Positions 13,093 to 29,240 of a stretch of 45,680 bases of DNA are shown one piece after another. Position numbers and translations under genes: made by a program. Location of the stretch: NCBI GenBank assembly GCA_902786355.1, contig CADABZ010000036.1, positions 1 to 45,680 on the forward strand, given 5' to 3'. This DNA is from an uncultured Eubacteriales bacterium. Lineage in GTDB: Bacteria; Bacillota; Clostridia; Peptostreptococcales; Anaerovoracaceae. Under the pieces are notes generated by a model that saw only the letters and a program-made list of their open reading frames with translations, was not told the DNA's origin and did no database searches. Numbering within the stretch: position 1 is the first letter of the stretch; every line of letters begins with the position of its first letter.

Positions 13093-14714
13093 TCACCTTC
13101 GTATCATTACTCTGTATGCCGGTTTCCCATTTGTAGCCATTGCCCCGCGCGATTCATATGCATATGAAACGCCATACTCATTAAAAATTCTTTCCAGATT
13201 AGTCTCATATGTAGTGACTGCAACACCGCCTGTTTTAAGCCATGACTGTATAGCGAGATTCCTGCCAGCACCATGGATCTTTGTGACATTAAGCTTGCTG
13301 TGTTTACGCACCTCTCTGCACCAGTTGGATAATACGCTTGCCGGACAGATCACAAGAAAGTGAGTGGCTCCTGTATTTCTAAGAGACACCATAGTTGCTA
13401 TAGCCTGGATAGTTTTCCCAAGCCCCATCTCATCACCAAGCAGCACCTTCTCCTGATGAAGTGTGTATTTTACCCCGAGCTCCTGGTATGGTCTAAGCGT
13501 ACAAAGCAGTCCATCCGGAAAGAATGTTTCTTCCTGTATTGCTATTGCGAGCTCTTCCGGAAGACCATAATAAGAATCACCGCCTCCGAGTATTCCCGGG
13601 ATGATGCTTTCCAATATATTGTAATAAACGATAGGGCTTTCCCTGAAATCTGCCCACGCCTGATCTGCCGTGTATATTATCTGCTTATTGATTGCCTGCC
13701 TTGCTTCTTTAAGCGCAGATTCATACTTACCGGAATGCACCGCCTGAAGATATTTAACCGAGGAACTCGCATATCTTTTTTCATCATCACTAAAGAATAA
13801 CCATTCCGTGCCATTGCCTATTCTATGGAGTATGCCTGCAGCTTTTTTTACTTTGTCACCATACTCAAGGTTCAGGGAATCAACTTTATCTATACAATCC
13901 TTTATGCTTCTATATGAACACAGTGCCTGGACAAGGCCTGTTGATTCTTTGTTTCTGTCATCTGCATTCAGCCGGATCCTGGCTTCAGACTGTGATGTCT
14001 TCAGAAATCTGTCAACGATCCGCTTCATCTGGAATGCGGAGTCCTCGCTTATCCCTCTTATGGAAGCAAGCTGATATACTGATGCAGCATAAAGATCCGC
14101 CATGGTGTCATATCCATAGTCATGCAACACCTTTACCCGTATCCCTCCGGCTCCCTGGTGATTCACCTCTTCTACCGGTACTTCCTCAAGTATGCGAAGG
14201 GCTTCTTTTGCCGCACAGAGATCTGCTGCCTTTTTTACCAGACTTTTCTTCTCCTCGATTTTGTCACTGAGGTTCGTTGATAGCTTGTCTATTTCATCCT
14301 GCTTTTGAAGAGTGGCAGCAAGTACCCTGATCGGCTTCTGTTCCAATTGAGCCGAGCCGGAAACAACAGAGTAGAACAACGACCTGTAGAATTTCAGATT
14401 GGTTCGAAGATCGTTATATGCTTCATCGAAGGATGGTGTGAGTGAAGAACTGTTTGTTAATTCAATCATTCTCGTCGCTTCATTTACAGCATTCACATAT
14501 TCGCTGCTAAGCATGGCCATCAGCTTTTCATATGCCTGGATCGCAGCATTCTGATTGTCAAATGATGAGAAGATCCACCGCAAAGCACCTGTGGCCGGCT
14601 TCAGTGCGGCAAGATTTTCCTCTATGTCATTTTTGTATTTTTCCAGCACTTTTTTACAGGCATTATTGGCGATCTCGAATTGTTTGCATCTAAACAACTG
14701 GACAATCAGATCCT
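13093..14714 (-). pseudogene. SNF2-family helicase remnant, truncated at both ends
   Basis: The minus-strand frame encodes ~540 residues: a long helical N-terminal region, a helix-hairpin-helix-like stretch (LHDYGYDTMADLYAASVYQL), then SNF2 motif I (LLGDEMGLGKTIQAIATMV) and Ia (LVICPASVLSNWCREV) up to VAVTTYETNLERI. Motif II (DEAH) and the whole second RecA domain are missing; the frame runs instead into an unrelated ~30-residue end (ESRGAMATNGKPAYRVMIRR). The native N-terminus is also gone: upstream of 14714 the open frame is only antisense of a NucS-like fragment. It is probably non-functional as a remodeller. Confidence 0.7.
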
Positions 14715-14857
14715 GAAGCATAAGGCAAATGGTAAAAAGGTATATGGCATCATATGTCTGAACGCTCCGGGCAAATCGCTGGTCGAAGCCGTTCGCAAGG
14801 ATGACCGGATGAAACAGCGAGATCCGATGATAATCACGGAAAAGCACATGTTATAGA
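14715..14857 (+). pseudogene. 3' fragment of a NucS/DUF91-like nuclease gene
   Basis: From GAAGCATAAG at 14715 the sequence is nearly identical to 28711-28825, the end of the nuclease gene there, and encodes its last ~38 codons (KVYGIICLNAPGKSLVEAV) to TAG 14857. An in-frame insertion of 9 codons (QRDPMIITE) before the final KHML separates the two alleles. The catalytic part is absent, cut off by the junction with the SNF2 remnant. Confidence 0.8.
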
Positions 14858-14858
14858 T

Positions 14859-15006
14859 TGTCAAGTAGAATTGACCCACTTTTACGTTCTGTTTTGACCC
14901 ACCTTAGTATCTCAGAATGAGATTTCTAAGGCGGGTCATTTCTATCTGTCAATCCTGATATTTACACACTGAATTGACCCACCTTGTTAATGAGTTATTA
15001 TCCTGT
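14859..15006. mobile_element. IS21-type terminal remnant with TTGACCCAC repeats
   Basis: The non-coding stretch starts TGTCAAGTAG and holds TTGACCCAC copies at 14871-14879, 14894-14903 and 14974-14983, plus an inverted GCGGGTCA at 14931. Multiple subterminal repeats after a TG end are characteristic of IS21-family ends. No transposase belongs to it here, so it is a solo end. Confidence 0.5.
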
Positions 15007-15162
15007 AGCCGTCCTGTGAGAGCGACGTCCGGTCAATCAGGATAGTACGGCTTGAACCATCTAATGTTATGTATCTGCTGAGTGAGCAGCCGATCGTTGA
15101 TCAGTTCGTTGACAAGCTTTTCCATAGCTATTTTTCTCGTGTCTATACTTCCTATGCTATAC
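15007..15162. repeat. Left copy of ~156-bp direct repeat
   Basis: From AGCCGTCCTGTGAGAGCG to CCTATGCTATAC, nearly identical (a few substitutions and a 2-bp indel) to 29083-29240 in the same orientation. Its minus strand contains MEKLVNELINDRLLTQQIHN... to a stop near 15033, which may be the tail of an older gene. Homology ends exactly where the IS21 terminus begins, so the IS probably inserted at this point. Confidence 0.85.
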
Positions 15163-15307: not shown

Positions 15308-16075
15308 TCATGCCGAAGGCATGCTGTCATCAGCCGCAGGCTGATGCTCAATGGTCTTTCTTCTCGATGGACCTTTAGCATCGATCCTGTAAGCATTGCG
15401 TACAAGCCGATCCATGATCGCGTCAGAGACGGTTGCATCCTTGAAGACTGACGGCCAGTCCTTTACCGGCAGCTGCGCCGAGATCGCTGTAGACTTGCAT
15501 GCATGATGTCTCTCTTCTATGACCTCGAGAAGATCATGTGACAGAGCCAGATCTATCTGCTTCAGGCCGAAGTCGTCGAGGATCAGGAGATCCGGCTTGG
15601 TCATATTTACGAGAAGCTTGTTGTAAGAGCCGTCGCCGCGCCCTATCGACAGATCTGTCAGCATCCGTGGGACTCTGAAGCATCTTACCTCATGTCCGCG
15701 CATGCAGGCTTCTCTTCCGAAAGCTGAGAGCAGATATGTCTTACCTACACCGGTAGCTCCTGTGACGATCAGATTAGATCCGTTCGTGATCCAGCTGCAG
15801 TCTGAAAGCTGCATGATCAATGGTTTCGGCAGCCTGCGTTTCTCATCGAAGTCGATGTTGGCAAGCGATGCCGAAGGATCTCTGAGTTCAGCTTTCTTGA
15901 GTAGCCGGTTGATCCTGGATGTATGACGTGCGTCGACCTGAGCGGTGACGATCATGGCGAATCTGTCATCGAACGGCAGGTCGCCCATCGCAGGGAGCTC
16001 TATCTGCCTCAGGTATTCCTGGCGCATAGCTCTCAGGCGAAGTTCAGTTAGTTGTTCTGCGGTCTGGTAGTTCAT
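15308..16075 (-). CDS. istB: IS21-family helper ATPase IstB
   Basis: This AAA+ ATPase is the DnaC-like target-selection partner of the IstA transposase. The protein has the IstB N-terminal helical region, Walker A GATGVGKT (near residue 105-112 from this start) and Walker B LLILDDFGL, and normal family length (255 residues). ATG 16075 is chosen over 16099 because AAGGAGGT lies 7 nt before it. The istA remnant ends just upstream, the standard IS21 order. Confidence 0.9.
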   Translation of the reverse strand: MNYQTAEQLTELRLRAMRQEYLRQIELPAMGDLPFDDRFAMIVTAQVDARHTSRINRLLKKAELRDPSASLANIDFDEKRRLPKPLIMQLSDCSWITNGSNLIVTGATGVGKTYLLSAFGREACMRGHEVRCFRVPRMLTDLSIGRGDGSYNKLLVNMTKPDLLILDDFGLKQIDLALSHDLLEVIEERHHACKSTAISAQLPVKDWPSVFKDATVSDAIMDRLVRNAYRIDAKGPSRRKTIEHQPAADDSMPSA

Positions 16076-16419: not shown

Positions 16420-16584
16420 TATATCTGTTTCATCAGATTTCCAGACCTTTTGCGTAAAATACTGCTCTTCATTATTTTTCAGTGTTTTCTGTGCCTCCTT
16501 ATAAGAGAATTCAATACATCGTCGACGATCTCTCTAAGTATATCTGTAAGATAGACCTGTCAAAAAAAGCAGGATGGCCGTTGC

Positions 16585-17496
16585 CTACAGCATTTGCATT
16601 TGTTTATCTGCGTATTCTTTGCAGTAATTCATGAAATTGGCAGCTTCTTCGGAGAGGCAGCTTTTGTCCGGGTACACGAAGAAGTAGTCGATAGGATCTG
16701 TCAGCTCCGGAACTTTTATTCGTGAGACCTGGCCGTGCTGTGTAGCTCTGGCTGCTGCAATCTCATATATGAATGATATCGCTTCGATTTCATGCAGATA
16801 TTCTTCTATGGCCAGCATACTGCCTGCTTCGATCTCTACTTTGAATTTGTTCCAGTCGAACCCATGCCTTGCAAATACCTGGCTGATAACATTATTAGCT
16901 GCAGCATTATGCTCACGGGAAATAACATCCTCCTTGATCAAATCTTTGAGTGAAGCAGTTTTACCCGCGAGAGGGTGGGCAGGGTTGCAGACGCATCTGA
17001 GGTAATCCTGAATAAATAATTCCTTTTCCATGCCGTCCGGCACAGCATATATATCTACAATCGCGTAATCAACTTTCCCCTCACTTATCAGCTGGCGCAT
17101 CTCTTTACCTGATGCAATATATGAACAGATACGGTAATCCGGATGGAGCTTCATATAGTCAGATACCATCTTAGGCAGCAGATATTCACCCATAGTCATA
17201 TTCGAGGCAAAAACTACTTTCTTGTATTTATCTGATCCTTCGATTTCAGCTATTCGCTTCTCGACACTCTTCGAAAGTGAAATGATCTTGCTAAGTTCTC
17301 TTCTCAGAAACTCTCCTTCAGGGGTGAGATATAGCTGCTTGCCCTTGTATTCTACTAATTTCACACCATAATGATTCTCAAGAAAACGTATATGCTGGGA
17401 AACCGCAGGCTGCGTGATATTCAGAATGTTCGCTGTCTGTGTGTAGCTTCTCGTCCCGCAAAGAGTCATGAATGTTTCGGTCCTGTAATCGATCAT
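16585..17496 (-). CDS. LysR-type transcriptional regulator of the cargo operon
   Basis: The 303-residue regulator has an N-terminal winged HTH (about 2-60: SYTQTANILNITQPAVSQHI) and a periplasmic-binding-like effector domain (about 85-295). Start ATG 17496 (MIDYRTETF) is favoured over 17523 because GAGG lies 6 nt upstream and LysR proteins normally begin about ten residues before this helix. It is divergent from aroM, the usual arrangement for a LysR activator of the adjacent operon; the inducer is probably the transported compound or a breakdown product. Confidence 0.92.
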   Translation of the reverse strand: MIDYRTETFMTLCGTRSYTQTANILNITQPAVSQHIRFLENHYGVKLVEYKGKQLYLTPEGEFLRRELSKIISLSKSVEKRIAEIEGSDKYKKVVFASNMTMGEYLLPKMVSDYMKLHPDYRICSYIASGKEMRQLISEGKVDYAIVDIYAVPDGMEKELFIQDYLRCVCNPAHPLAGKTASLKDLIKEDVISREHNAAANNVISQVFARHGFDWNKFKVEIEAGSMLAIEEYLHEIEAISFIYEIAAARATQHGQVSRIKVPELTDPIDYFFVYPDKSCLSEEAANFMNYCKEYADKQMQML

Positions 17497-17695
17497 TTTG
17501 CGCCTCGCTTTCATATAATTCATATGTTTTCAAACTCAGATAACAGACCATTCGGTCAAAAAAAGCAACTCTTCATCTATGAGTATAACATAATATTATA
17601 GAACACAAAATATTTAAAATTTTCATTTATGGAAGAATGGTGATATTGTTCATTTAGGCATACAATACATCTTAGCAACAGAGGAGGTGGATTAG
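17497..17695 (+). promoter_or_regulatory. Divergent LysR/aroM control region
   Basis: This AT-rich 199-bp intergenic region holds a -10-like TACAAT at 17661-17666. The hexamer 17 bp upstream (TGGTGA, 17638-17643) is a poor -35, as expected of a LysR-activated promoter. GAGGAGG at 17681-17687 is the aroM ribosome-binding site. I could not assign a particular T-N11-A operator. Confidence 0.5.
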
Positions 17696-18370
17696 ATGAA
17701 AATCGGGGCTGTAACTATCGGTCAATCCCCAAGAGTCGATGTGACACCGGATATTATGCCAATATTCGGTGACGAAGTCGAACTGCTGCAAATGGGGGCA
17801 TTAGACGGATTGAGCAAGGAGGATATCGCTGCCATGGTGCCTAGAGAAGGGGATTATTTCCTCGTATCAAGACTGAATGATGGATCTTTTGCAAAATTCA
17901 GCGAATCGTATATAGCAGAGCGTATGCAGCAATGCGTGACTGCATTAGAGGAGCAGGGAGCCGTAGTGATTATGGTCATGTGTGCCGGCGAGTTCCCGCT
18001 ATTCAAAGCGCGAGTGCCTGTGATATATCCGGGCAAGGTCCTTGATGGACTTGCTGCTGCACTGACACCACGCAAAAGGCTCATAGTTATCACGCCTGAT
18101 GAGCAGCAGCTCTCACAGGCGTACAGACACTGGGGGCCGGTAATGGATGAAATATATCCATTCGCTGCTAATCCTTACGGACCGATGTCTGAGGTCGAGG
18201 AGGCTGCGGCAAAAGCAAAAGACGTAGAGGCTGATCTTGTGGTCATGGACTGCATCGGTTTCTCCGTCAAAGCCAAAGAGATCGTTGCAAAAGCAACAGG
18301 TCTGCCGGTCTTGCTTTGCAGGACAGTCCTTGCAAGAACTGCTTGTGAAGTTATAGCCGGATTACAGTGA
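17696..18370 (+). CDS. AroM family protein
   Basis: The 224-residue protein belongs to the AroM family, start KIGAVTIGQSPRVDVTPDI, with conserved cysteine motifs MVMCAGEFP (near residue 98) and VMDCIGFS (near 183). The two Cys in symmetrical half-domains resemble Asp/Glu/hydantoin-racemase-like folds, so an isomerase or racemase role is possible, but the biochemical function of AroM is not established. It is first in the operon, 30 bp before the OPT transporter gene, with a consensus ribosome-binding site. In a peptidase/transporter context it is likely catabolic. Confidence 0.85.
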   Translation: MKIGAVTIGQSPRVDVTPDIMPIFGDEVELLQMGALDGLSKEDIAAMVPREGDYFLVSRLNDGSFAKFSESYIAERMQQCVTALEEQGAVVIMVMCAGEFPLFKARVPVIYPGKVLDGLAAALTPRKRLIVITPDEQQLSQAYRHWGPVMDEIYPFAANPYGPMSEVEEAAAKAKDVEADLVVMDCIGFSVKAKEIVAKATGLPVLLCRTVLARTACEVIAGLQ

Positions 18371-18400
18371 CAGGTAGATTTGTGGGAAGGAGTAAAGAAA

Positions 18401-19999
18401 ATGAACGAAAATGAAAAGAACCTAAGGCAACATCCTAAAGCGTTGGATCCTAGTGTTCTCATACTCAATATCATACTTGCTGTTCTTGGCTCGATTATCG
18501 GTCTTGAGGTTATCGTTCGTATTGGTATCAGTACGAATACGTCGATTATCGGCGCGCTGTTTGCGATCATTATTTCAAGAATACCGGTAAGTATCTTTAA
18601 GAAATTCAAAGATATCAACGTCCAGAATCTCGTACAGACTAATATTTCGGGCGCTACATTCTGTACAGCAAACTCTTTGATCCTTGCAATTGGCATCCCG
18701 TTCCTGCTCGGAGAACCGGGACTTGTAGTACCGATGCTTGTAGGTGCCACTATTGCATCCATCATAGACGCAACCATCTTATATAAGACATTCGATACTG
18801 AAATGTTCCCTGCAGCAGAGCCGTGGCCTCCTGGAGTAGCAGCCGCTGAGACGATCAAGGCTTGCGCTGGACAAACAAAGCATGCCTTCCTGCTGCTGGT
18901 TGGTATTGCCGGCGGCGTTGCCGGTAAAGCTTTATTCGGGATCCCGATGGATATCCTCGGCGTAGCCTGGATCGGTGACATCTGGGCACTCAGCGCATTC
19001 GGCGTAGGTGCTCTTGCGATTGGTCTTTCTAATGACTTTGGATTCCCAATGGGACAGTACTACGTACCGCACGGAATCATGATCGGTGCAGGCCTTGTAG
19101 CTCTTATTCAGGTATTCATGATGCTGTTCAAGAAGGACAGCGGAAGCGACTCTGTAGCAGGCAAGTTCACATCCAGCATGAAGGATATGAAGAAGGCTAT
19201 CTTTGGCGGTTACGGAGCATACGTTGCAGTAGCTCTTGTACTTGCAATATTCTGCGGCTTCTTCCAGCAGATGGGATTCCTGCAGTTCGTATTTTGGGTA
19301 CTTTACGCAGCGTTTGCAGCTATCGCGTCAGAACTGATCATCGGTATGGCAGCCATGCACTCCGGATGGTTCCCTGGATTCGCAACCGCTCTTATCTTCC
19401 TGATCGTAGGTATGCTTGCAGGATTCCCGCCACTTGGCCTTGCGATTCTTGCAGGTTATACATCAGCGACAGGACCTGCATTCTCAGATATGGCTTATGA
19501 CCTCAAGTGCGGATATATCCTCAGAGGAGGCGGAGAAGATCCTGAATTTGAGAAAGAAGGACGTAAGCAACAATATATTTCAGAGGTCATCTCATTCGTA
19601 GTAGCTATGATCGTTGTGGCAGTTGTTTATAAGACATATTTCGCAGCTGATCTGTTCGCTCCTGTATCACGTACGTTCCTTACAACTATTGAAGCAGGTT
19701 CTTCACCGGAAATCGCTAAGTGGCTCGTGATCTGGGCTGTACCGGGTGCGATCATCCAGTTCATAGGAGGCCCTAACAAACAGCTCGGAGTACTCCTTGC
19801 AACAGGTCTTCTGGTAGGAAGCACGATAACAGGTATCACTACTATAGCAGCTCTTATCATAAGAGTCATCGTGATCAAGTGGAAGGGCGAGAAGGGACAG
19901 AGCATCATGTACATACTCGCGGCAGGCTCTATCGCAGGTTCAGCGCTGTACAGCTTCTTCTCTTCAACATTGGCACTTGGCAAATCCTTGAAGAAGTAA
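18401..19999 (+). CDS. OPT-family transporter
   Basis: The 532-residue multi-spanning membrane protein (about 12-14 hydrophobic helices) is of the oligopeptide transporter (OPT/YSL-like) family. Characteristic segments are the EPWPPGVAAAETI motif near residue 140 and GLSNDFGFPMGQYYVPHG near 210. OPT proteins are proton-coupled importers of small peptides or metal chelates. ATG 18401 is preferred over TTG 18380, which lies before the GGAAGGAG ribosome-binding site. With several downstream peptidases, a peptide-like substrate is the natural reading. Confidence 0.85.
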   Translation: MNENEKNLRQHPKALDPSVLILNIILAVLGSIIGLEVIVRIGISTNTSIIGALFAIIISRIPVSIFKKFKDINVQNLVQTNISGATFCTANSLILAIGIPFLLGEPGLVVPMLVGATIASIIDATILYKTFDTEMFPAAEPWPPGVAAAETIKACAGQTKHAFLLLVGIAGGVAGKALFGIPMDILGVAWIGDIWALSAFGVGALAIGLSNDFGFPMGQYYVPHGIMIGAGLVALIQVFMMLFKKDSGSDSVAGKFTSSMKDMKKAIFGGYGAYVAVALVLAIFCGFFQQMGFLQFVFWVLYAAFAAIASELIIGMAAMHSGWFPGFATALIFLIVGMLAGFPPLGLAILAGYTSATGPAFSDMAYDLKCGYILRGGGEDPEFEKEGRKQQYISEVISFVVAMIVVAVVYKTYFAADLFAPVSRTFLTTIEAGSSPEIAKWLVIWAVPGAIIQFIGGPNKQLGVLLATGLLVGSTITGITTIAALIIRVIVIKWKGEKGQSIMYILAAGSIAGSALYSFFSSTLALGKSLKK

Positions 20000-20055
20000 A
20001 AATTATATAAATAATTCAAAATAAATCGATAGAAGAAAAAAAGGAGGCACTATTA

Positions 20056-21129
20056 ATGGAACTCAATCTGGGTTTTGAAGCAAGAGACGAGTACTTGCAG
20101 CTGGAAACATTCAAGGGCGCCATGGTTCTCTTACGCGATGTAATGCTTGTCAAACCGGGACTTAATGTACTCATCACTGGTGATACATCTTCGGATAAGC
20201 GTGTAATGGATGCTTTTGCGGCAGCTGCTTATGCACTTGACTGCATACCGGTGACAGCGACATACCCTACGGCACCACTTTCACTGATGGATCCGCCTAC
20301 AATGATCCAGGAAGCAGCTATGGAAGCCGATGTATGGCTTGAGTGCGCTTATCAGACGGTACAGCATACACCGTCCTGGCAGAAAGTCATTGCGCATGGA
20401 AGAGTACGCTACATGTGCCTGACAGGTATCGATGTAGACATGCTTGTAAGATGTGTTGCAAATGTCAAATATGACGCGATGGTAGAATTCGGCGAATATC
20501 TCAAAGCGACCATCGAGAAAGTAGATAAGATCGAGATCAAATCTGCAAACGGCACAGACCTCGTTGCATATGAGAGTGGCAGAAAAGTCCGTCACTCAGG
20601 ACAGAAATACTGTATCGACGGATATCCATATATGCTCGGTGGACAGATTTCATGGTGCCCGCTTGAATCTACTATCAACGGAACACTTGTCTTCGACGGC
20701 GCTATCTGGCCACCTGCAGATCTGTGCAAACTTAATGAACCTATCAAGCTGACTCTTGAAAATGGTGTAGTTACCAATATCGAGGGAGGCAAGGAAGCTC
20801 AGAGACTTGCTGAGTGGATGGCATCATTCAATTGTCCGGAATCTTACAGACTTGCTCATTATTCGCTGGGATTCAATCCTGGAGTCAAGGCTCCTACAGG
20901 CAGGATAGTAGAGGACGAGCGTGTATTCGGCGGAGCTGAATTCGGAATCGGAAGTCAGGGCGCGGCTATTATGGGCGAGAAGTGGGATGCTCCAAGCCAC
21001 ACAGATGGAACTATCGTAAAGCCGACACTCATCTTTGACGGAGTAGTCTTCGAGCAGGATGGTGTATATCTTGATCCTAAGGCAAGAGAGTTCTGCAGAA
21101 AGATGGGCCTGCCTGGATACGAAGACTGA
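20056..21129 (+). CDS. M29-like aminopeptidase
   Basis: The 357-residue protein resembles aminopeptidase T (M29) and its relatives such as the NicX-type metal enzymes. An N-terminal Rossmann-like half (VMLVKPGLNVLITGDTSSDK) is followed by a C-terminal half with GGAEFGIGSQGAAIMGEKWD and SHTDGTIVKPTLIFDG, where Glu and His residues would bind metal. It would release N-terminal residues from small peptides. AAGGAGG precedes the ATG. A second, shorter homologue is encoded at 23,624. Substrate is unknown. Confidence 0.75.
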   Translation: MELNLGFEARDEYLQLETFKGAMVLLRDVMLVKPGLNVLITGDTSSDKRVMDAFAAAAYALDCIPVTATYPTAPLSLMDPPTMIQEAAMEADVWLECAYQTVQHTPSWQKVIAHGRVRYMCLTGIDVDMLVRCVANVKYDAMVEFGEYLKATIEKVDKIEIKSANGTDLVAYESGRKVRHSGQKYCIDGYPYMLGGQISWCPLESTINGTLVFDGAIWPPADLCKLNEPIKLTLENGVVTNIEGGKEAQRLAEWMASFNCPESYRLAHYSLGFNPGVKAPTGRIVEDERVFGGAEFGIGSQGAAIMGEKWDAPSHTDGTIVKPTLIFDGVVFEQDGVYLDPKAREFCRKMGLPGYED

Positions 21130-21151
21130 TCAGGTACCAAGGCAATTTATA

Positions 21152-22543
21152 ATGGAAAAAAAATTAAACGATTTGATTGAAAGCTATCAGGAAGATATGA
21201 TAGCGGACCTCAAAAGGCTGGTCAGGATCCCGAGCATCTTTGATCCTGACACAGCCGGCCCAGGCGCCCCCTTCGGGCAAGGAGCCCGGGATGTACTGGA
21301 CGAGGTCATCAAAATTTCAGAGGAACTCGGTTTCGAGGCGAAGGATTATGACGGTTATGCCGCTTCCGTCAGATATGGAAGCAGCGGCCGTGAGGTCGGT
21401 ATGCTTTGCCATGCTGATGTAGTACCGGTCGACGATAACTGGCTCACTGATCCGTTTGATCCTGTTATCAAGGATGGCAGGATGTATGGCAGGGGAACGG
21501 TTGATGACAAAGGACCGCTCATAGCAGCAATGTATGCCATGAAAGCTATTAAGGAGAGCGGGCTTGAGCTGGATGGTCATATCAACCACATAATCGGCTG
21601 CAATGAAGAGACCGGTCATGAGTGCATCAAGTATTATCTGACTAAAGAGAAGTGTCCGGACATAGGATTCTCTCCGGATGGTAGTTTTCCGGTGATCCAT
21701 GCTGAAAAAGGCATAATCCGTTACACTATAACTCATCCTGTAGAACAGGCTGATGGAACAGCTGTAATCGTCAAAAAGATTGTTGGGGGGACAGTAGTGA
21801 ATGCAGTTCCGAATCTGGCTAAAGTCTGGCTGAAAGGGAGCAAAGAGGCTTTGCAGGAAGTAGCGGACAGCTTTGGTGGAGAGCATGCATGGGAAGACGG
21901 AGCTCTGGTGCTTTCATTCACCGGAGTCAGTGCGCATTCTATGCAGCCATGGCTCGGGAAGAACGCGATACTGCCTATGCTGGCATTCATGAAAGATGTC
22001 AATGGCCTCAGCGATGACGCAAAGAAATTCTTTACTTCGCTCGATTCACTTTATGCTGATGGATGGGAAGGAAAGAATATCGGTATAGCCTGTGAGGACC
22101 AGCTTTCGGGGAAACTTACCATGAACCTGGGAGTCATCCGGTTTGAGAACGGAATATCTGAACTGAAGGTCGATCTTCGTTGTCCTGTTCATATAGACCT
22201 TGAACAGATATGGAAAACGACAGATATAAACTGTCAGAAATATGGATTCCATCCTGTGTACTGGCAGATGAGACCACCTCTTTATATACCTAAGGAAGCA
22301 CCTTTGGTCGAAACTCTGCTGGGAGTATATAACGAGATGACTGGTGAAAAAGCTGAAGCTATCACGATCGGCGGAGGCACCTACTGTCGTGATGTCACTA
22401 ACTTCGTATCGTTCGGACCTGTTTTTCCTTATGAAAAGGAACTGGCCCATGAAGCAAATGAGTTCATCGGCATCAAAGAATTCATTATGGCATCGAAACT
22501 GTATGCGCAGGCGTTGTATGCACTGTTAAGACCGGAAGAGTGA
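21152..22543 (+). CDS. M20-family dipeptidase (PepV/Sapep-like)
   Basis: The 463-residue di-zinc peptidase has LCHADVVPV with metal ligands H87 and D89, GRGTVDDKGP with bridging D118, NEETGHE with catalytic/ligand E152-E153, and a C-terminal His in ELAHEANEF. Length and motifs fit PepV/Sapep dipeptidases, which cut dipeptides including some with D- or beta-residues. ATG 21152 (MEKKLNDLI) is used; an in-frame start at 21059 would overlap the previous gene by 70 bp. The ribosome-binding site is weak (AAGG). Confidence 0.88.
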   Translation: MEKKLNDLIESYQEDMIADLKRLVRIPSIFDPDTAGPGAPFGQGARDVLDEVIKISEELGFEAKDYDGYAASVRYGSSGREVGMLCHADVVPVDDNWLTDPFDPVIKDGRMYGRGTVDDKGPLIAAMYAMKAIKESGLELDGHINHIIGCNEETGHECIKYYLTKEKCPDIGFSPDGSFPVIHAEKGIIRYTITHPVEQADGTAVIVKKIVGGTVVNAVPNLAKVWLKGSKEALQEVADSFGGEHAWEDGALVLSFTGVSAHSMQPWLGKNAILPMLAFMKDVNGLSDDAKKFFTSLDSLYADGWEGKNIGIACEDQLSGKLTMNLGVIRFENGISELKVDLRCPVHIDLEQIWKTTDINCQKYGFHPVYWQMRPPLYIPKEAPLVETLLGVYNEMTGEKAEAITIGGGTYCRDVTNFVSFGPVFPYEKELAHEANEFIGIKEFIMASKLYAQALYALLRPEE

Positions 22544-22636
22544 TTTCAATCGGCCAGGAGATCTAGAAAACTCATAAAAATCTCTGGGTCTCCGGGTTTT
22601 CCTATTTTATTCAAGCAATCATAAGGAGAAAATATC

Positions 22637-23581
22637 ATGTTGATGAAACAGATTCTGGAAATATACGATATCCTTGACAGCATCTATGCGAGCGGTGCTG
22701 CGGTGGAAGAGTATCTGCGCGTCATTGATCCGGATGCGGATATTGACGTATATGAATTAAAGGGTGAAAATGGTGACGGAAAAACTGACATGATCAAGAT
22801 CCGTATCCCGGGAACCAAAGGGAAGACAGTAGGGGGCGAAGCGCCAACCATCGGTCTTCTCGGGCGTCTTGGGGGGATCGGCGCAAGACCTGAAAGAATA
22901 GGCTTTGTATCAGATGGTGATGGCGCTCTGTGTGCTCTTGCGATCGCTGCAAAGATCCTGGATATGAGAAAGAAGGGCGATGCGCTTGAAGGTGATGTGC
23001 TGATTTCCACGCACATTTGCCCGGTAGCCCCGACTCAGCCTCACAAGCCTGTCGCTTTCATGGGATCACCTGTTGAGATCGCGCAGGTCAACAAAGAGGA
23101 AGTGTCTGATGATCTTGACGCAATCCTTTCCGTTGATACGACCAAGGGAAACCGCGTTATCAATACACGTGGTTTTGCGATTTCACCAACTGTCAAGGAA
23201 GGCTACATACTCAAAACTTCTGAAGATCTGCTGGATATCATGCAGATCACGACAGGAAGGCTGCCTTATGTTTTCCCGTTGACCACTCAGGATATTACGC
23301 CTTATGGCAATGACCTTTACCATCTGAATTCCGTGCTGCAGCCTTGCACGGCAACACCTGCCCCGGTCGTAGGAGTAGCTATCACGACCGAGATGCCGGT
23401 CCCGGGCTGTGCAACAGGCGCTACTCATATATGCGATGTTGAGGAGGCAGCGAGATTCATGCTTGAGGTCGCAAAATCATTCGGCCGCGGGGAATGTCAG
23501 TTCTACGACAAAGAAGAGTACGAGAAGATCGTACATAAGTATGGTTCAATGAAGCATCTGCAGACCAAGGGCAGAGAATAG
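22637..23581 (+). CDS. DUF1177 family protein
   Basis: The 314-residue protein has the DUF1177 pattern: DILDSIYASGAAVEEYL near the start, GLLGRLGGIGARPERIGFVSD near 75, and ISTHICPVAPTQPHKPVAFM near 125. The His/Asp/Glu-rich motifs hint at a metal enzyme, but no activity is known to me. Such proteins are often encoded near AroM, OPT and M20 genes, which supports a joint pathway. AAGGAG lies upstream of ATG. The 93-bp spacer before it holds a weak GGAGA/TCTCC stem and a T-rich run that may modulate readthrough. Confidence 0.8.
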   Translation: MLMKQILEIYDILDSIYASGAAVEEYLRVIDPDADIDVYELKGENGDGKTDMIKIRIPGTKGKTVGGEAPTIGLLGRLGGIGARPERIGFVSDGDGALCALAIAAKILDMRKKGDALEGDVLISTHICPVAPTQPHKPVAFMGSPVEIAQVNKEEVSDDLDAILSVDTTKGNRVINTRGFAISPTVKEGYILKTSEDLLDIMQITTGRLPYVFPLTTQDITPYGNDLYHLNSVLQPCTATPAPVVGVAITTEMPVPGCATGATHICDVEEAARFMLEVAKSFGRGECQFYDKEEYEKIVHKYGSMKHLQTKGRE

Positions 23582-23623
23582 AAGGAAATAAAGATAATTA
23601 TTCGAGGATAAAAGGAAACAATT

Positions 23624-24571
23624 ATGGAATTAAAAGAGATCGGCAGGAATATTCTGACAGGGTGTATGGGTCTTAGACCTGGAGAGAAGGTTCTTATCGT
23701 TACTGATGACGCAAAACTTCCAATAGGCACTGCATTATATGAAAGTGCCAGATCTTTAGGCAATGAGTCGGTGCTTATGCTGATGCCGGAGGGCAAGGTC
23801 TCAGGCGAGGAGCCGCCTGAATGTGTAGCACAGGCAATGCTGGCAGCCGATGTTGTACTTGCTCCTACTGCAAAATCGATCACACATACCAATGCAAAGA
23901 TCGCCGCGCAGGCTAAGGGGGTCAGAGTTGCCACGATGCCTGGAATTACTGAAGAGATGTTTGGTAACGGCGCCATGACAGCGGACTATTCCAGGGTCGA
24001 AGCACTGACGGATAAAGTCACCGAATTGCTTACAAATGCAGATACAGCAACCATTCTCAAGGACGGATATAAGCTTACTTTGGATCTTAAAGGCCGCCGC
24101 GGCGTAGCAAGTCCAGGTGTATATAAAGAGCCTGGAAAATGCGGGAATCTCCCATCGGGCGAGGGATATATAGCGCCTCTCGAGGATGGTGTGAACGGCG
24201 ATTTGCTTGTTGATGGCTCTATGGTAGGAGTTGGAAAGCTATCATCTCCGCTTCATTTTGTGATCAGGAATGGAAAGATAGAGTCTATCGAAGGTGAGGA
24301 TGCAGACAAACTGGACATCCTGCTGGCGAATGACAACAATCGCACTGTGGCTGAGCTTGGGATTGGAACTAACGATGCGGCCATTCTGAACGGAATCATT
24401 CTGGAGGACGAAAAAGTTTACGGCACCGTACATGTCGCATTTGGCACGAATGCTTCTTTCGGTGGAATCAATAAGGCCGACTGTCATATGGACGGGATCG
24501 TGCTGAAACCGACTCTTTATCTTGATGATCTTCTGGTAATAAAGGATGGGGATTTTGTATATGAACAATAA
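23624..24571 (+). CDS. Second M29-like (aminopeptidase T-like) protein
   Basis: The 315-residue protein has the same two-half plan as the 20,056 product but with low identity. Its N-terminal half carries GLRPGEKVLIVTDDAKLPIG, and the C-terminal half has VAELGIGTNDAA, VYGTVHVAFGTNASFGG and ADCHMDGIVLKPTLYLDD, containing the Glu/His ligand pattern of M29-type enzymes. It overlaps the racemase gene start, so translation is probably coupled. It may be a peptidase of different specificity or a partner of the first homologue. Confidence 0.75.
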   Translation: MELKEIGRNILTGCMGLRPGEKVLIVTDDAKLPIGTALYESARSLGNESVLMLMPEGKVSGEEPPECVAQAMLAADVVLAPTAKSITHTNAKIAAQAKGVRVATMPGITEEMFGNGAMTADYSRVEALTDKVTELLTNADTATILKDGYKLTLDLKGRRGVASPGVYKEPGKCGNLPSGEGYIAPLEDGVNGDLLVDGSMVGVGKLSSPLHFVIRNGKIESIEGEDADKLDILLANDNNRTVAELGIGTNDAAILNGIILEDEKVYGTVHVAFGTNASFGGINKADCHMDGIVLKPTLYLDDLLVIKDGDFVYEQ

Positions 24572-25250
24572 GAGACTTGATGCGAGCCTTGATGTGGGGC
24601 TGATCCGCGTGCTCACAAGCAACGATCAATACTTTGTGGATACGCACGGTCGTCTTATCATGGAAAACTATCCCGGGATCAATGTTGAAAGCATCTGCAT
24701 ACCTGATCAATGGGAAGGCATACATGACGATGAGACGCTTGCTAAGGCACTGCCTAAGATAGTAGAAGCAGCGCAGGGCTTTGCAGATAAGGACATGATC
24801 CTTGTTAGCTGTGCTGATGATCCGGCAGTAGATATGATCAGGGAAGAAATGCCTGAAATGCCTGTTACTGGCGGGGGAGAGACGACTGTAGCCATGGCAC
24901 TTCGGTACAGCAGCAGGGTCGGCGTGATCGGGATCACGGACAGACCGCCCAGAGCATATCTTAGCAATGCCGAGGGCAAGATCGCTTTGTATGAAAAGAT
25001 AAACCAAGTAAACAGTACTCTTGATCTTCTTACCGATGAGGGCAAGAGGGGTGTGCTGGAGTGTGCGCGCAGGATCAAAGAAGCCGGCTGCGGTGTCATC
25101 GCTCTTGCATGTACAGGCATGTCTACGATAGGCATAGCCGGTCTGATAGAACGTGAGACAGGACTGCCTGTGGTCGATCCGGTCATCGCGGAGGGTGCTT
25201 TTGCATATCACGAACTCATTCGTAAGAAATACAGAAATACAGGGGACTGA
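24561..25250 (+). CDS. Asp/Glu/hydantoin-racemase-like protein
   Basis: The 229-residue protein has two symmetric catalytic cysteines, LVSCADDPA (C84) and IALACTGMS (C184), as in the Asp/Glu/hydantoin racemase superfamily, which inverts the alpha-carbon of amino acids or hydantoins without a cofactor. ATG 24561 gives an 11-bp overlap with the previous gene and a GGATGGGGA site upstream; ATG 24546 is the alternative. A racemase beside peptidases suggests that released residues include D-amino acids or a cyclic derivative. Confidence 0.8.
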   Translation: MNNKRLDASLDVGLIRVLTSNDQYFVDTHGRLIMENYPGINVESICIPDQWEGIHDDETLAKALPKIVEAAQGFADKDMILVSCADDPAVDMIREEMPEMPVTGGGETTVAMALRYSSRVGVIGITDRPPRAYLSNAEGKIALYEKINQVNSTLDLLTDEGKRGVLECARRIKEAGCGVIALACTGMSTIGIAGLIERETGLPVVDPVIAEGAFAYHELIRKKYRNTGD

Positions 25251-25269
25251 AGAGACCAGGGAAATCAAA

Positions 25270-26217
25270 ATGGATTATCTGATGATACTTATCCCCAAGC
25301 TTCTGAGGTTCCTTATCCTCATCGCGATCGGTTTCGTGGTCTCGAAGCTCGGGGTAATCAAAAAAGAAGGCCTGCCAACTTTGTCAGGACTCCTGATCAA
25401 TGTTGCGATGCCGCTTCTTATCATATCGATAATGAACCAGCAAGCTACGTCTGTGATGGATCTGCTTGAGTTTCGCAGGATGGTCGGATGGCAGCTTTTT
25501 GGCTATTTTCTGCTTGCATTGACTGGAGTTCTGGTAAGTAAGCTTCTAAGACTCGATCATAGATCCGGCAATGTTCATCGTGGAAGCATGGTAGGAGGCA
25601 ATTACGCTTTTATCGTGCTTCCTCTTATCATGACACTTTTCACGCCCGAGGATGGACAGCAGTATATCCCTGTCTGCTCCGCTGTAGATACGCTTACAGC
25701 ATGGACTCTGGCGCTTTCATTCTTCTCTCAGGGAGTCGACAATGGCGGAAGATCCAAACTGGCAATTATTGGCAAGAAGTTCATAAATCCGATCATGGTT
25801 GCCATTGTAGGCATGCTGATCCTGAACTCGCTTTCTGTCAGGTTGCCTGAGCCTTTTCTGGCTGTCAGCGATGAACTGGGGAATGCAAGCCTTTGCCTGG
25901 GCCTGATCTACGTAGGCGCTGTCATCTGCTATATGGAGAAGGGGAATCTTACTACTATAAAAAATTCATCTATTCTCACTATAAGCAAACTCATCGTGGT
26001 ACCGTTCGTCGTCTATCTCGTCACTTCGAGGTTTATGCCTGAGACCGAAAGCATAATCCTCATGCTGATTGCCGGATCCCCGACCTTTACCGTCAGCTGC
26101 GTTCTGGCTGAGCAATATCATCTTGATCTTGAATATGCAGCGACGAACGTGTTCTTAACGACGACCGGGTGCCTTCTGAGCATTCCGCTGTTGTTCGTTC
26201 TGATCACATTTGTATAG
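25270..26217 (+). CDS. AEC-family (auxin efflux carrier-type) transporter
   Basis: The 315-residue membrane protein has about ten helices in two halves, with VAMPLLIISIMNQQ near residue 47, the usual AEC position, and GSPTFTVSCVLAEQYHLD near the end. Bacterial AEC members carry small carboxylates or amino-acid-like acids. It may export an end product or import a second substrate. ATG 25270 is chosen over an in-frame start at 25153, which would lie within the racemase gene. The upstream site CAGGGA is weak. Confidence 0.85.
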   Translation: MDYLMILIPKLLRFLILIAIGFVVSKLGVIKKEGLPTLSGLLINVAMPLLIISIMNQQATSVMDLLEFRRMVGWQLFGYFLLALTGVLVSKLLRLDHRSGNVHRGSMVGGNYAFIVLPLIMTLFTPEDGQQYIPVCSAVDTLTAWTLALSFFSQGVDNGGRSKLAIIGKKFINPIMVAIVGMLILNSLSVRLPEPFLAVSDELGNASLCLGLIYVGAVICYMEKGNLTTIKNSSILTISKLIVVPFVVYLVTSRFMPETESIILMLIAGSPTFTVSCVLAEQYHLDLEYAATNVFLTTTGCLLSIPLLFVLITFV

Positions 26218-26220
26218 AAG

Positions 26221-26246
26221 GCGAAAAAGCATGGCTTTTTTTCGTC
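26221..26246 (+). terminator. Weak hairpin with U-rich arm in the operon
   Basis: GCGAAAAAGC (26221-26230) pairs with GCTTTTTTTCG across an ATG loop, and TCATTTTT follows. It may be a partial terminator that lowers expression of the distal three genes. Confidence 0.35.
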
Positions 26247-26273
26247 ATTTTTCGATAGAAAGGATATATAAAT

Positions 26274-26813
26274 ATGAAGATTTCTAAAGCAATCGAAGAA
26301 AGACGAAGTATACGCAAATTCACTTCGCAGACGGTCGACAGATCGATCCTTCTGTCGCTTATCCGTGCGGGTGCGCTGGCCCCGTCCGCAAGCAACGCAC
26401 AGTTCTGGAGATTTATCGTTGCAGATAACCAGGATCTGGTAAGAAAGCTGGATCTTTACTGTCCCGGGATGAGCGGCAAACCAACCGCAATCATTGTCAT
26501 TGCCAGTGATCTTGAAGAAGTAGCCAGTAAAGGCAGCAAGAACAGCATTGAATATGGCTGTATGATGGATGCTTCCATGGCAGCTGAGAATATTATTCTG
26601 CAGGCGCTCGAGTTCGGCCTTGGAACGTGTGTGATTAAGAGTTACAATGATGGAGCGGTTCGCAAACTTCTTGGAATTCCGGATACACTTCGTATCGAGA
26701 TCCTGATTTCTGTTGGATACCCTGATGGGGAACCCAGAGAGCGCAAAAGAAAGGATCTTGATCAGATCCTGCAGTGGAATGGATGGAATACCAGTGATAC
26801 GGAGGGCAAGTGA
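26274..26813 (+). CDS. Nitroreductase-family flavoprotein
   Basis: The 179-residue FMN-dependent oxidoreductase has IEERRSIRKFTSQ, the N-terminal FMN-binding motif, followed by GALAPSASNAQFWRFIV, and YGCMMDASMAAENIILQALE with the C-terminal half-site. It probably works as a homodimer with NAD(P)H. In this setting it could reduce or desaturate an intermediate, but members act on very varied substrates. A good ribosome-binding site (AAAGGATAT) precedes it, and its stop overlaps the start of the next gene (ATGA-type). Confidence 0.88.
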   Translation: MKISKAIEERRSIRKFTSQTVDRSILLSLIRAGALAPSASNAQFWRFIVADNQDLVRKLDLYCPGMSGKPTAIIVIASDLEEVASKGSKNSIEYGCMMDASMAAENIILQALEFGLGTCVIKSYNDGAVRKLLGIPDTLRIEILISVGYPDGEPRERKRKDLDQILQWNGWNTSDTEGK

Positions 26814-27076
26814 TGGACGGGCTTACTGAATTGTTGATTTACATGGCGACCAGCGCGGCAGGGCTCACCGACGAACCTGTAAATTACGGGCCGCTCAGAA
26901 TGATAACAGCTGCGCAGAAACTCACAGAGTATATGCTGAAACAGGATCCGGATAATGCTGTTTTAAGAGCGATCGCGGATGATATTGAAGAGAATAAGGG
27001 CAGATACTCTACATCTCCTGACGCGTTTGCGGAAATGCTTAACAGAGTAGTAGAAAAGACAGTGGATCTGCTATAA
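26813..27076 (+). CDS. DUF6092-like small protein
   Basis: The 87-residue helical protein has LIYMATSAAGLTDEPVNYGP and LRMITAAQKL, which resembles DUF6092 proteins of unknown function. ATG 26813 is used because GGAGGG sits 6 nt before it; the GTG three bases earlier is less well placed. It is tightly coupled to the nitroreductase gene and could be a subunit or partner of it. The family assignment is from memory of the pattern. Confidence 0.55.
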   Translation: MDGLTELLIYMATSAAGLTDEPVNYGPLRMITAAQKLTEYMLKQDPDNAVLRAIADDIEENKGRYSTSPDAFAEMLNRVVEKTVDLL

Positions 27077-27095
27077 ATAATTGAGGATATGATTT

Positions 27096-28049
27096 ATGGA
27101 TAATAAGACTATTTACAGCAAAGGGTGGCCTGAAGGGCAGGAAGAGGGATTCATTCCCGTTGAAGGTGGCAGTGTTTTCTACCATTACTATGGCAAGGGG
27201 AAACCCGGAATCCCGATCGTCTTCCTTCATGGCGGGCCAGGCAGCACGGGACTATGCTTCTTCAAGCAGACTGCACTTGCCGAAAAACATCCGGTCGTGA
27301 TTTATAACCAGCTTGGCAGCAAAGGGTCTGGTTTTGCTGATAATATCACTACTTCAGAAGAAGCCAGACAGTATCTGACAATAGACCATTTCGTCAATGA
27401 AGTCCAGACTGTAATAGACTTCTTTGATTTCGCTGAGTTTATGATTGTTGCCCGTTCATGGGGAACAATGCTTGCTGTTGAGTATGCTGCAGCCAGGCAG
27501 CCAAAAGGACTCAAGGGTATAGTACTGGATGGACCGTTCCTCAATGTTGATCAGTGGTGCAGTGATGCTGAGAGGCTGATCAAGTCTCTGGACAAAGGCG
27601 AGGAATATTGGCAGATCGTTCGTGAATGCGAGGAATCGGGTATTTTCGAGGATGATCCAAGATATGCAATGGTCAATGAGATATATTCCGCTAATTTCAA
27701 TAGCCGGGTAGCGGGAGCAAATGACGGTACACCGGCTGATCCGGAATCGCAGCATACGATCCCGGGGTTATCAGTCTACAACTATATGTGGGGTCCATCG
27801 GAATTCTCTTGCACAGGAACCTTGAAGGGGCATGATTCAACAGTGCTTCTGAGCAGCATCAAAATCCCGATCCTCTATATCTGCGGACAGTACGACAGCG
27901 GAACTCCGGAGGCTGCCAGCTTGTACAATTCGATGACGCCAAATGGCGAGATCTGCGTACTTCCGGGATGCGGCCACAACGCTTCCCGCGAAAGGCCTGT
28001 TGAATTCAACGCAGTAGTCGGAGCATTCGCAGAAAGGATCATGGAATAA
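27096..28049 (+). CDS. Proline iminopeptidase-like alpha/beta hydrolase
   Basis: The 317-residue serine hydrolase has oxyanion-hole motif FLHGGPGS (about 44-50), nucleophile elbow ARSWGTM (S121), Asp in GQYDSGTP (D267) and His in GCGHNASRERP (H294). The HGGPG motif and length fit the proline iminopeptidase (S33) group, which removes N-terminal Pro or similar residues. The elbow has Arg where Gly is usual, and NQLG replaces the common DQ.G, so specificity may be altered. It is the last gene of the cargo operon; a short palindrome AGCTTTAAAGCT follows at 28055. Confidence 0.85.
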   Translation: MDNKTIYSKGWPEGQEEGFIPVEGGSVFYHYYGKGKPGIPIVFLHGGPGSTGLCFFKQTALAEKHPVVIYNQLGSKGSGFADNITTSEEARQYLTIDHFVNEVQTVIDFFDFAEFMIVARSWGTMLAVEYAAARQPKGLKGIVLDGPFLNVDQWCSDAERLIKSLDKGEEYWQIVRECEESGIFEDDPRYAMVNEIYSANFNSRVAGANDGTPADPESQHTIPGLSVYNYMWGPSEFSCTGTLKGHDSTVLLSSIKIPILYICGQYDSGTPEAASLYNSMTPNGEICVLPGCGHNASRERPVEFNAVVGAFAERIME

Positions 28050-28138
28050 AACGCAGCTTTAAAGCTCGTTGCTGTTTTCGATGAGAAGAGGAACCGAAGT
28101 TAATAATCTATTGTAGATGTTCCGGACATATTGGGGGA

Positions 28139-28450
28139 TCAGCTTAACGGATCCTTCTTCTGCCGCCAGTAGTGCTGATAGAGTTCTTCGGTTGCAAGCG
28201 CCATCTTGGTCACGGAGAAATCTGTCCCATGCGGGAAGATGTACCAGGTGTCTTCAAGCGTATTGAGGTCGACGCAGTCACCGTGCTTGCCCAGATAGTC
28301 GTGCTCGATGTGGCAGGAATAGAGGGAAGGCACGTCTTTTTCCATCAGAAATTCATCTCCGTCACGGTCGATCCCGCGGACGACAAAACCATCCATATTG
28401 TGGACGAGAATGCCTTCGCCGAGCCGGAAATGAAGCCTGCAATTGAGCGT
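28139..28450 (-). pseudogene. C-terminal fragment of an unrecognised gene
   Basis: The minus-strand frame runs from about 28450 (LHFRLGEGILVHNMDGFVV) to a stop at 28139 (TKMALATEELYQHYWRQ near the end). It has the composition of a real protein and a coherent 104-residue tail, but upstream it meets the NucS-like gene, so its 5' part has been lost. I do not recognise the family with confidence. Confidence 0.45.
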
Positions 28451-28825
28451 AAGGGCGTTCAGTTCCAGTCAGAGAAAGTTCTTGAGGACGAATTGACGAT
28501 GCGGCTGGAAGCCGGAATGGACGTGTTTGGAATACCTCTGAAGATATACAGACGAAGAGGTGAGTACGGCAGACAGTATATTTTTCCTGAAGGCAGGCTT
28601 GATATACTCGCAGAAGATCCTGACGGGAACCTCTATATCATCGAACTGAAAAAGGACAGCGGTTATGACGACGCATATAAGCAGACTGCTCAGTATATCG
28701 ACTGGTTCCAGAAGCATAAGGCAAATGGTAAAAAGGTATATGGCATCATATGTCTGAACGCTCCGGGCAAATCGCTGGTCGAAGCCGTTCGCAAGGATGA
28801 CCGGATGAAAAAGCACATGTTATAG
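28432..28825 (+). CDS. NucS/DUF91-like PD-(D/E)xK nuclease, probably 5'-truncated
   Basis: The recognisable ~130 residues contain FQSEKVLEDELTMRLEAGMD, FPEGRLDILAEDPDGNLYII and ELKKD, i.e. the GRxDIL...ExK metal-binding core of NucS-like endonucleases, then KQTAQYIDWFQKHKANGKKV. Although the frame is open back to 28172, that 5' part is antisense of the minus-strand fragment, so the likely coding start is ATG 28432 or the gene is truncated there. A diverged 3' copy lies at 14,715. Nucleases of this class cut branched or mismatched DNA; activity here is uncertain. Confidence 0.6.
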
Positions 28826-29082
28826 TGAGTATTCCAGCGTAGTTTCCCGCACCTGTCCGGGATGAGGAAATCATGATTCTGGTCGTAGGAAATCAGCAAA
28901 ATGATTTTGCTATATGCAGTATGTCTTATCAAGGTTGCAAGCACCGCCTTTGGCGGCAAGGCCTTGACAAGCCACACTGCATATGGTGCAAGGCAATTAA
29001 GCTGATTTATAGTGATTTCCTGTCATCGGACAAGCGATTTCCATTTCATCGGACAGATGCTTTCATCGCGCCGGAATATTCA
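28826..29082. mobile_element. IS21-like end remnant with GTCATCGGACA repeats
   Basis: No gene is seen. CTGTCCGGGATGAGGAAATC (28853-28872) is an imperfect inverted match to GATTTCCTGTCATCGGACA (~29014-29032), with a second TTTCATCGGACAG downstream at ~29044. A GCCTTTGGCGGCAAGGC hairpin lies between. These look like subterminal repeats of a deleted IS21-family element or a MITE derived from one. Confidence 0.4.
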
Positions 29083-29240
29083 AGCCGTCCTGTGAGAGCG
29101 ACGTCCGGTCAATCAGAATAGTACGGCTTGAACCATCTAATGTTATGTATCTGCTGAGTGTGAGCAGCCGATCGTTGATCAGTTCGTTGACGAGCTTTTC
29201 CATAGCTATTTTTCTCGTGTCTATACTTCCTATGCTATAC
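29083..29240. repeat. Right copy of ~156-bp direct repeat
   Basis: Nearly identical to 15007-15162 and in the same orientation, also placed downstream of a NucS-like 3' end. Here the sequence past the shared CCTATGCTATAC is not an IS end, so this copy probably shows the uninterrupted arrangement. Confidence 0.85.

Follow-up and report, generated by a model that had tools for sequence, protein, structure and literature searches.

A mobile DUF1177-AroM gene cluster with a cyclodipeptide-oxidase-like pair in an uncultured Eubacteriales bacterium, possibly serving the use of cyclic dipeptides

Gene clusters containing a cyclodipeptide oxidase (CDO) were surveyed in 2024 (PMC11055893, cited here and below from the portions available to us): 274 were reported, 88% of them without a cyclodipeptide synthase (CDPS), and many of these non-CDPS clusters hold a hydantoin racemase, DUF917, AroM, OPT or Dpp transporters and peptidases. 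Their function was given as unknown, with hydantoin/allantoin chemistry or new metabolites as proposals, and Blautia, Clostridium and Thermococcus were named as anaerobic carriers. On the side of nutrition, the available part of a text of 2013 (PMC3852281) has it that the peptidases tried so far are inactive on cyclic dipeptides (2,5-diketopiperazines, DKPs), that Paenibacillus and other strains are active, and that the hydrolysing enzymes were unclear; no catabolic genes were found among the matches listed in our literature search on DKP utilisation. We analysed a stretch of 45,680 bases, called the window below (contig C36, CADABZ010000036.1, of a 63-contig, 2.50-Mb assembly of an uncultured gut bacterium of the Eubacteriales), which carries a twelve-gene cluster of this kind.

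The cluster is real, conserved and mobile, and it is a variant of the published cluster type without known function. All twelve genes are confirmed (Table 1), and the open reading frames (ORFs) and strands bear out an earlier sequence-only reading in which a LysR regulator gene, on the minus strand, faces eleven co-directional genes on the plus strand; its picture of a co-directional import-plus-breakdown cluster for a peptide-like, possibly cyclic substrate is also supported. The system, for which that reading saw the best candidate for an undescribed one, is not entirely undescribed, since the association of CDO, AroM, DUF917, racemase and OPT is already in print, without a function, in the available portions of PMC11055893. 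Measured against the non-CDPS clusters described there, the window is alike in having CDOA and CDOB beside AroM, an Asp/Glu/hydantoin racemase, OPT and peptidases, with Blautia among their carriers. It differs in being without DUF917 and in carrying DUF1177, a name with no occurrence in the available text of that paper, and it adds two NicX/M29-like genes (M29a and M29b), a PepV-type dipeptidase, an AEC carrier, a prolyl-iminopeptidase-family hydrolase and a probable mobile element.

Our tentative proposal, which may well be right and which we rank first among the readings considered, is that the cluster is an operon, spread by horizontal transfer, for the breakdown of DKPs or of ring amides much like them; we infer its substrate and all of the reactions that follow. 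Uptake of the ring compound would be the task of the OPT protein. An acidic C-alpha would be epimerised by AroM and the hydantoin-racemase-like protein, bringing every stereoisomer to a single form, and the CDO-like, filament-type flavoprotein pair would dehydrogenate C-alpha/C-beta, giving an enamide that would tautomerise to an imine and be opened by water. DUF1177 and the two NicX/M29-like metalloproteins would act as hydrolases on the ring or on the amides formed from it; linear dipeptides would be finished off by the PepV-type dipeptidase together with the prolyl-iminopeptidase-family hydrolase; the AEC carrier may export an acid product or import a related acid; and LysR would sense the substrate. 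Such a substrate, a ring dipeptide or similar ring amide that resists ordinary peptidases, would best explain why one cluster combines an importer of peptide type with two racemase-family proteins, a CDO-like pair, three metalloproteins of peptidase fold and two hydrolases of dipeptide type. An ordinary peptide-utilisation operon was set aside, as it leaves the CDO pair, the hydantoin-type racemase and the NicX-like proteins unexplained.

Table 1. Genes of the cluster and associated features, in window coordinates.
Feature	Position	Strand	Remarks
LysR-type regulator	16585..17523	-	divergent from operon; PF03466 and PF00126; best NCBIfam match below cut-off
AroM-family protein	17696..18370	+	PF07302, 254 bits
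OPT-family transporter, likely importer	18401..19999	+	PF03169, 72 bits; longest ORF from 18380
M29a, NicX/M29-like metalloprotein	20056..21129	+	nearest solved structure NicX 7cn3
M20 PepV/Sapep-type dipeptidase	21152..22543	+	NF005591, TIGR01887; longest ORF from 21059
DUF1177 protein	22637..23581	+	PF06675, 460 bits; predicted zinc-exopeptidase-like fold
M29b, NicX/M29-like metalloprotein	23624..24571	+	Peptidase_M29 PF02073, 39 bits (cut-off 27)
Hydantoin/Asp-Glu racemase-family protein	24546..25250	+	Asp_Glu_race PF01177, 83 bits
AEC-family carrier	25270..26217	+	Mem_trans PF03547; longest ORF from 25153
Terminator-like hairpin, possible attenuator	26220..26246	+	ten pairs; between AEC and the CDO pair
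CDOA-like nitroreductase-fold flavoprotein subunit	26274..26813	+	Nitroreductase PF00881; nearest 9exv, 8uc3
CDOB-like subunit (DUF6092)	26810..27076	+	PF19585, 81 bits; 88 residues
Proline-iminopeptidase-family alpha/beta hydrolase	27096..28049	+	TIGR01250, 190 bits (cut-off 168); PF00561
Transferred unit	16542..28428		11,889 bp, 98.9% identity with L031:3906-15792; flanks unrelated
Direct repeats, left copies	14711..15162		108 and 156 bp; flank the cargo region
Direct repeats, right copies	28707..29240		108 and 158 bp

The genes first taken for a nitroreductase and for a DUF6092 protein without established role are, by sequence comparison, the two subunits of a CDO-like enzyme, PF19585 being the CDOB small subunit and the "nitroreductase" its partner. 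The best solved-structure matches of the CDOA protein (26274) are 9exv (E 5.4e-24), which we take to be the NdasCDO of PMC11760959, and albonoursin synthase 8uc3 (E 2.2e-20), and the arrangement is that of a CDO, a nitroreductase-fold CDOA and a small PF19585 CDOB from overlapping genes. The window shares with AlbAB (8uc3) and 9exv this two-part make-up as well as the small-subunit tyrosine; unlike them, it comes with no CDPS gene recognised among the proteins scanned, and the relatives of its host are anaerobes. Single-sequence matches of CDOB to AlbB chains are weak (E 0.0055 and 0.015), three designed repeat proteins scoring slightly better for compositional reasons. CDOB Tyr26 aligns with Tyr36 of NdasCDO-B and is kept in all 4 aligned sequences (conservation counts, here and below, exclude members that are at least 95% identical or whose alignment covers under 60% of the query); Tyr36-B is discussed as catalytically relevant in the available portions of PMC11760959. 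The FMN-linking Cys121 of 9exv faces a gap in the phmmer alignment of CDOA, with Cys96 nearby, an alignment that is not decisive; covalent FMN bound through a CDOA cysteine is restricted to CDPS-associated members according to PMC11055893, where CDO gene pairs are also said to overlap by 4 bases, as CDOA and CDOB do here (26810-26813).

PF19585 is found in 6 of the 391 genomes of the window's class, its own included. At the other five CDOB loci, for which 6.8-19.9 kb were taken, a nitroreductase gene adjoins PF19585 and DUF917 lies within reach, and none has a DUF1177 or AroM match; four have an M29a relative and PucR, and one has a short M29b-like stretch and a racemase. The CDO and DUF1177 modules overlap but differ. 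Four of these loci (L134, L135, L136 and L137) represent another type of CDO cluster, in which CDOA-CDOB-PucR is accompanied by M29a and DUF917, with no DUF1177 or AroM match; the five ORFs that separate PucR from M29a in L134 resemble, by eye, a dipeptide ABC transporter.

The protein encoded at 24546-25250 belongs to the Asp/Glu/hydantoin racemase superfamily by its PF01177 match and its two conserved cysteines: Cys89 and Cys189 are invariant in 29 of 29 aligned sequences. Its profile matches 2eq5 (E 2.9e-91), 3qvj (E 1.3e-13) and 5lfd (E 2.3e-9), hydantoin and allantoin racemases being among them, and it resembles the hydantoin racemase family in both respects; 2eq5 itself is annotated as a "hypothetical hydantoin racemase". 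AroM is a likely candidate for a two-cysteine racemase/isomerase, with Cys96 and Cys186 invariant in all 52 aligned sequences.

The count of "at least four hydrolases" in the sequence-only reading is not borne out, both M29-like proteins lying nearer to the NicX dioxygenase branch than to the aminopeptidases. M29a has no Pfam or NCBIfam match, and its sole solved-structure match is NicX (7cn3, E 5.6e-9); its His268, Glu295, His315 and Asp317 are invariant in 8 of 8 aligned relatives, and His268 aligns with residue 265 of the NicX chain, presumably an iron ligand. M29b matches PF02073 only over the C-terminal profile positions 186-351 of 406, and its Glu244, His270, His288 and Asp290 are invariant in 33/33 sequences. 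NicX is again the solved structure nearest to the M29b profile (7cn3, E 2.5e-12), and also to its model (pLDDT, predicted local distance difference test, 94.8), which Foldseek places closest to NicX (E 6.2e-27, query TM-score (TMq) 0.81, about 20% identity), then to PepS, AmpT and AmpS (TMq 0.62-0.74). Neither protein has the full-length PF02073 match that marks peptidase family M29, and an identity as M29 aminopeptidases was rejected because NicX is closer. While NicX (2,5-dihydroxypyridine 5,6-dioxygenase) is thus the closest solved structure to both, the window differs from its setting in that no other nicotinate-pathway gene was recognised there, and an anaerobe is unlikely to carry out a reaction that uses O2. 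The M20 product, for its part, scores above the cut-offs of the PepV/Sapep dipeptidase models (NF005591, 452 bits against 435; TIGR01887, 432 bits against 208).

For DUF1177, a zinc-exopeptidase-like fold is predicted. The model (pLDDT 85.6, predicted TM-score (pTM) 0.89) matches 237 solved chains at a Foldseek E of 0.001 or below; the top matches include M17, M28 and M20 enzymes, and the 50 listed comprise zinc-type exopeptidases (M17, M28), DapE, BotP and glutaminyl cyclase, with TMq of 0.46-0.54. Glutaminyl cyclase makes a ring by amide chemistry. The likeness to these enzymes lies in the predicted fold and differs from that of a sequence relative, as no solved structure matches DUF1177 by sequence at E < 0.1 (best E 0.41). 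His126 and Asp167 are among the residues invariant in 22 of 22 aligned sequences. No described role for DUF1177 was found in the open-licence literature, in the parts available to us; the name appears there in work on fungal DUF1996 proteins.

The recurrence of the gene set was followed over 102 loci around DUF1177: the window, 6 plasmid loci, 80 of 548 relatives and 17 stretches from genomes of the order (104), minus 2 with identical DUF1177 DNA. The sample is biased towards the window's own DUF1177, includes a near-copy of the window (L031) and has 36 loci shorter than 19 kb, and a gene is counted when it lies within 10 kb of DUF1177. AroM is found at 54 loci, DUF917 at 46, OPT, racemase and PucR at 37 each, M29b at 36, DppB homologues at 20, an NCS1 permease at 9, M29a at 7, the CDO pair at 6 and AEC at 5, the AEC-bearing loci all holding the CDO pair too; 51 loci have two or more genes of the set AroM, M29b, racemase and DUF917. 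Among the 198 genomes of the order (E <= 0.001), DUF1177 is found in 20, AroM in 9 and DUF917 in 41; all 9 AroM genomes are among the 20 with DUF1177 (Fisher p = 1.6e-10), as are 16 of the 41 DUF917 genomes (p = 2.0e-9), both values being uncorrected for relatedness. In the ten DUF1177-AroM pairs lying on one contig, the gap is 31-40 bases four times, 860-868 bases three times, and 4.4 (the window), 9.7 and 12.5 kb in the others.

DUF1177 directly precedes AroM on plasmids of Klebsiella, Sodalis, Paenibacillus and a haloarchaeon. In a Blautia operon (L039), AEC, PucR, OPT, DUF917, DUF1177, AroM, M29b, racemase, CDOA and CDOB follow one another; compared with it, the window has LysR in place of PucR, lacks DUF917 and adds M29a, M20 and the prolyl-iminopeptidase-family gene. 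Another Blautia, B. caecimuris, carries the core but gives no CDO match. M29a occurs together with M20 also in L056 and L119. The expectation that the genes would be found together elsewhere thus holds for the core, while the complete twelve-gene order was seen nowhere but in the window and its near-identical counterpart L031. A one-off assembly of the cluster was rejected, because the core recurs. Another unassigned member of the core is a family of 279 residues that neither Pfam nor NCBIfam matches (L093:2147-2986, L119:8482-9990), present at 12 of the 102 loci and fused to AroM in L119. DUF1177 has a different setting at L100 and L103, both from Clostridioides difficile, and at L115, L117 and L126, where DUF3100-M20D-DUF1177 replaces the AroM set.

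Several observations weigh against a DKP operon. The CDO pair is present at only 6 of the 102 DUF1177 loci, the window and L031 being two of them; with the five CDOB loci that have no DUF1177 or AroM match, this scarcity implies that core and CDO each work independently of the other. At 37 loci DUF1177 stands without AroM, M29b, racemase or DUF917. Characterised CDOs require O2, earlier work having found no CDO oxidation without it (PMC11760959; PMC11055893, both in the portions available), while the relatives of the host are gut anaerobes. The AroM profile matches 2eq5 only weakly (E 0.026), the DUF1177 model superposes on its matches with a root-mean-square deviation of 5.5-7.8 A, and its low-confidence stretches (80-89 and 135-141) hold conserved residues. 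Finally, DUF917, the NCS1 permeases and PucR fit hydantoins or ureides as well as they fit DKPs.

This last point leads to the strongest competitor, which we nevertheless consider unlikely: a catabolism of hydantoins or ureides, within which we keep purine/allantoin degradation. Five-membered hydantoins or thiohydantoins from amino acids, purines or ergothioneine-like compounds would be epimerised by the hydantoin racemases and opened by DUF917 and DUF1177, and M20/M29-like enzymes would free the amino acid. Such chemistry was proposed for the non-CDPS CDO clusters in the available portions of PMC11055893, and it suits the racemase profile, with its hydantoin and allantoin racemase matches, as well as the NCS1-type permease and PucR counts given above. 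DUF917 relatives match the NCBIfam thiohydantoin desulfurases at 287 and 271 bits, below the cut-offs of 440 and 450 (no paper was found on "thiohydantoin desulfurase"), and on a Planococcus plasmid DUF1177, without AroM, lies near hydantoinase/oxoprolinase, DUF917 and cytosine-permease genes. Against this, DUF917 has no match in the window's genome, the twelve genes include no recognisable hydantoinase or NCS1 permease, and the OPT importer, the PepV-type dipeptidase and the prolyl-iminopeptidase-family hydrolase point to peptides; it is on these three genes and on the absence of DUF917 that our modest preference for DKPs over hydantoins is based. The peptide-type transporters near DUF1177 (OPT and DppB homologues) likewise count for a peptide-like ring substrate, as does the dipeptidase PepE, which stands beside DUF1177-AroM-racemase on the Klebsiella and Sodalis plasmids.

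Those same transporters and the M20-type hydrolases, which dominate the neighbourhoods, would also suit linear modified peptides (with D-residues, dehydro residues or isopeptide bonds), along the lines of the sequence-only reading, the CDO pair then being a reductase or oxidase of dehydroamino acid residues and the racemases acting on freed amino acids; the plasmid-borne PepE suits it as well. We rate this explanation as unlikely too and place it after hydantoins, for it leaves unexplained the recurrence with DUF1177 of a CDO-like pair, a hydantoin-type racemase and DUF917. Biosynthesis or modification of a ring compound by a secondary-metabolite cluster, which the characterised CDOs exemplify and the available portions of PMC11055893 leave open, is improbable here, as no CDPS or nonribosomal peptide synthetase gene was recognised among the twelve genes and ten flanking proteins scanned and the gene set is rich in importers and peptidase-fold proteins.

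The DKP reading can be carried further, into a speculation that we put forward with little confidence: DUF1177 with its AroM and NicX/M29-like partners would be the core of an unrecognised, widespread bacterial and archaeal pathway opening peptidase-resistant ring peptides, DUF1177 itself being a metal-dependent cyclic-dipeptide hydrolase, a kind of enzyme missing so far; some gut anaerobes would have taken over a CDO-like filament enzyme from antibiotic synthesis and put it to nutritional use in the absence of oxygen, and the whole pathway could move between species as one 11.9-kb unit. If the DKP reading is right, the cluster supplies testable candidate genes for enzymes opening cyclic dipeptides; DUF1177, AroM and the NicX/M29-like branch, families without assigned function, would share one role; and CDO pairs outside antibiotic clusters, a point left open in the available portions of PMC11055893, would be explained. 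The operon being compact and mobile, a direct test is possible.

The mobility of the cluster is seen by comparison with L031, a Mogibacterium metagenome-assembled genome from sheep jejunum and the nearest locus in named genomes. Beyond the shared unit, the right flank of L031 (15800-20942) has only 26-base and 36-base matches in the window's genome, and the last 0.6 kb of its left flank has partial matches of 78-82% at three other places; a nearly identical unit between different flanks means that L031 is probably another species and that the unit moved recently. Within its own family, the window's genome is alone in having DUF1177 among the 198 genomes of the order, two genomes of the same genus being without it. 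The direct repeats framing the cargo are alike at 98% (108 bp) and 97% (158 bp), and the left side has an IstB-like gene. At its right end (28172-28428) the unit breaks off within sequence that in L031 runs on as a minus-strand ORF (15503-15964); a fragment of a gene that neighboured it in its source has thus come along.

As had been claimed, the cluster likely lies on an integrative and conjugative element (ICE), which is incomplete in this contig. Speaking for it, the contig encodes a type IV secretion system coupling ATPase (PF02534, 224 bits), a VirB4-like ATPase, a CHAP protein and two tyrosine integrases, and thus the coupling ATPase, VirB4-like ATPase and integrase by which an ICE is recognised; TrbL_2 was matched below cut-off. 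The ten flanking proteins scanned include no recognised relaxase, in a contig that is cut at both ends. An att-like 26-mer at 43439-43464, just past an integrase gene, recurs in L031 1.3 kb to the right of the unit; by eye it looks like a tRNA or tmRNA 3' end, though ARAGORN found no such gene in the window or L031.

As to the fine layout of the cluster, the M29b and racemase genes overlap by 26 bases, which, like the CDOA/CDOB overlap, is consistent with coupled translation. Judged by reading frames and ribosome-binding sites, the probable starts of OPT (18401), M20 (21152) and AEC (25270) sit inside the longest ORFs. The region has 18 terminator-like sites against a shuffle mean of 9.1 (standard deviation 3.3), and the hairpin before CDOA may set the expression of the last three genes apart; the promoter scan of the region, with 16 found against a shuffle mean of 17.9, did no better than shuffles.

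Elsewhere on the contig, three imperfect copies (74-77% alike) at 43338-44265, ending like a tRNA or tmRNA 3' end beside the integrase gene 42167-43330, are possibly serial attachment sites. The second tyrosine integrase (44412-45653, minus strand, PF00589) lies at the contig end on the strand opposite to the first, a hint that two elements adjoin here. The 1,592-residue protein at 36827-41605 starts like a signal sequence, has repeated domains and carries a membrane stretch at its C-terminus; to the eye it resembles a surface protein of the Cna-B type belonging to the element.

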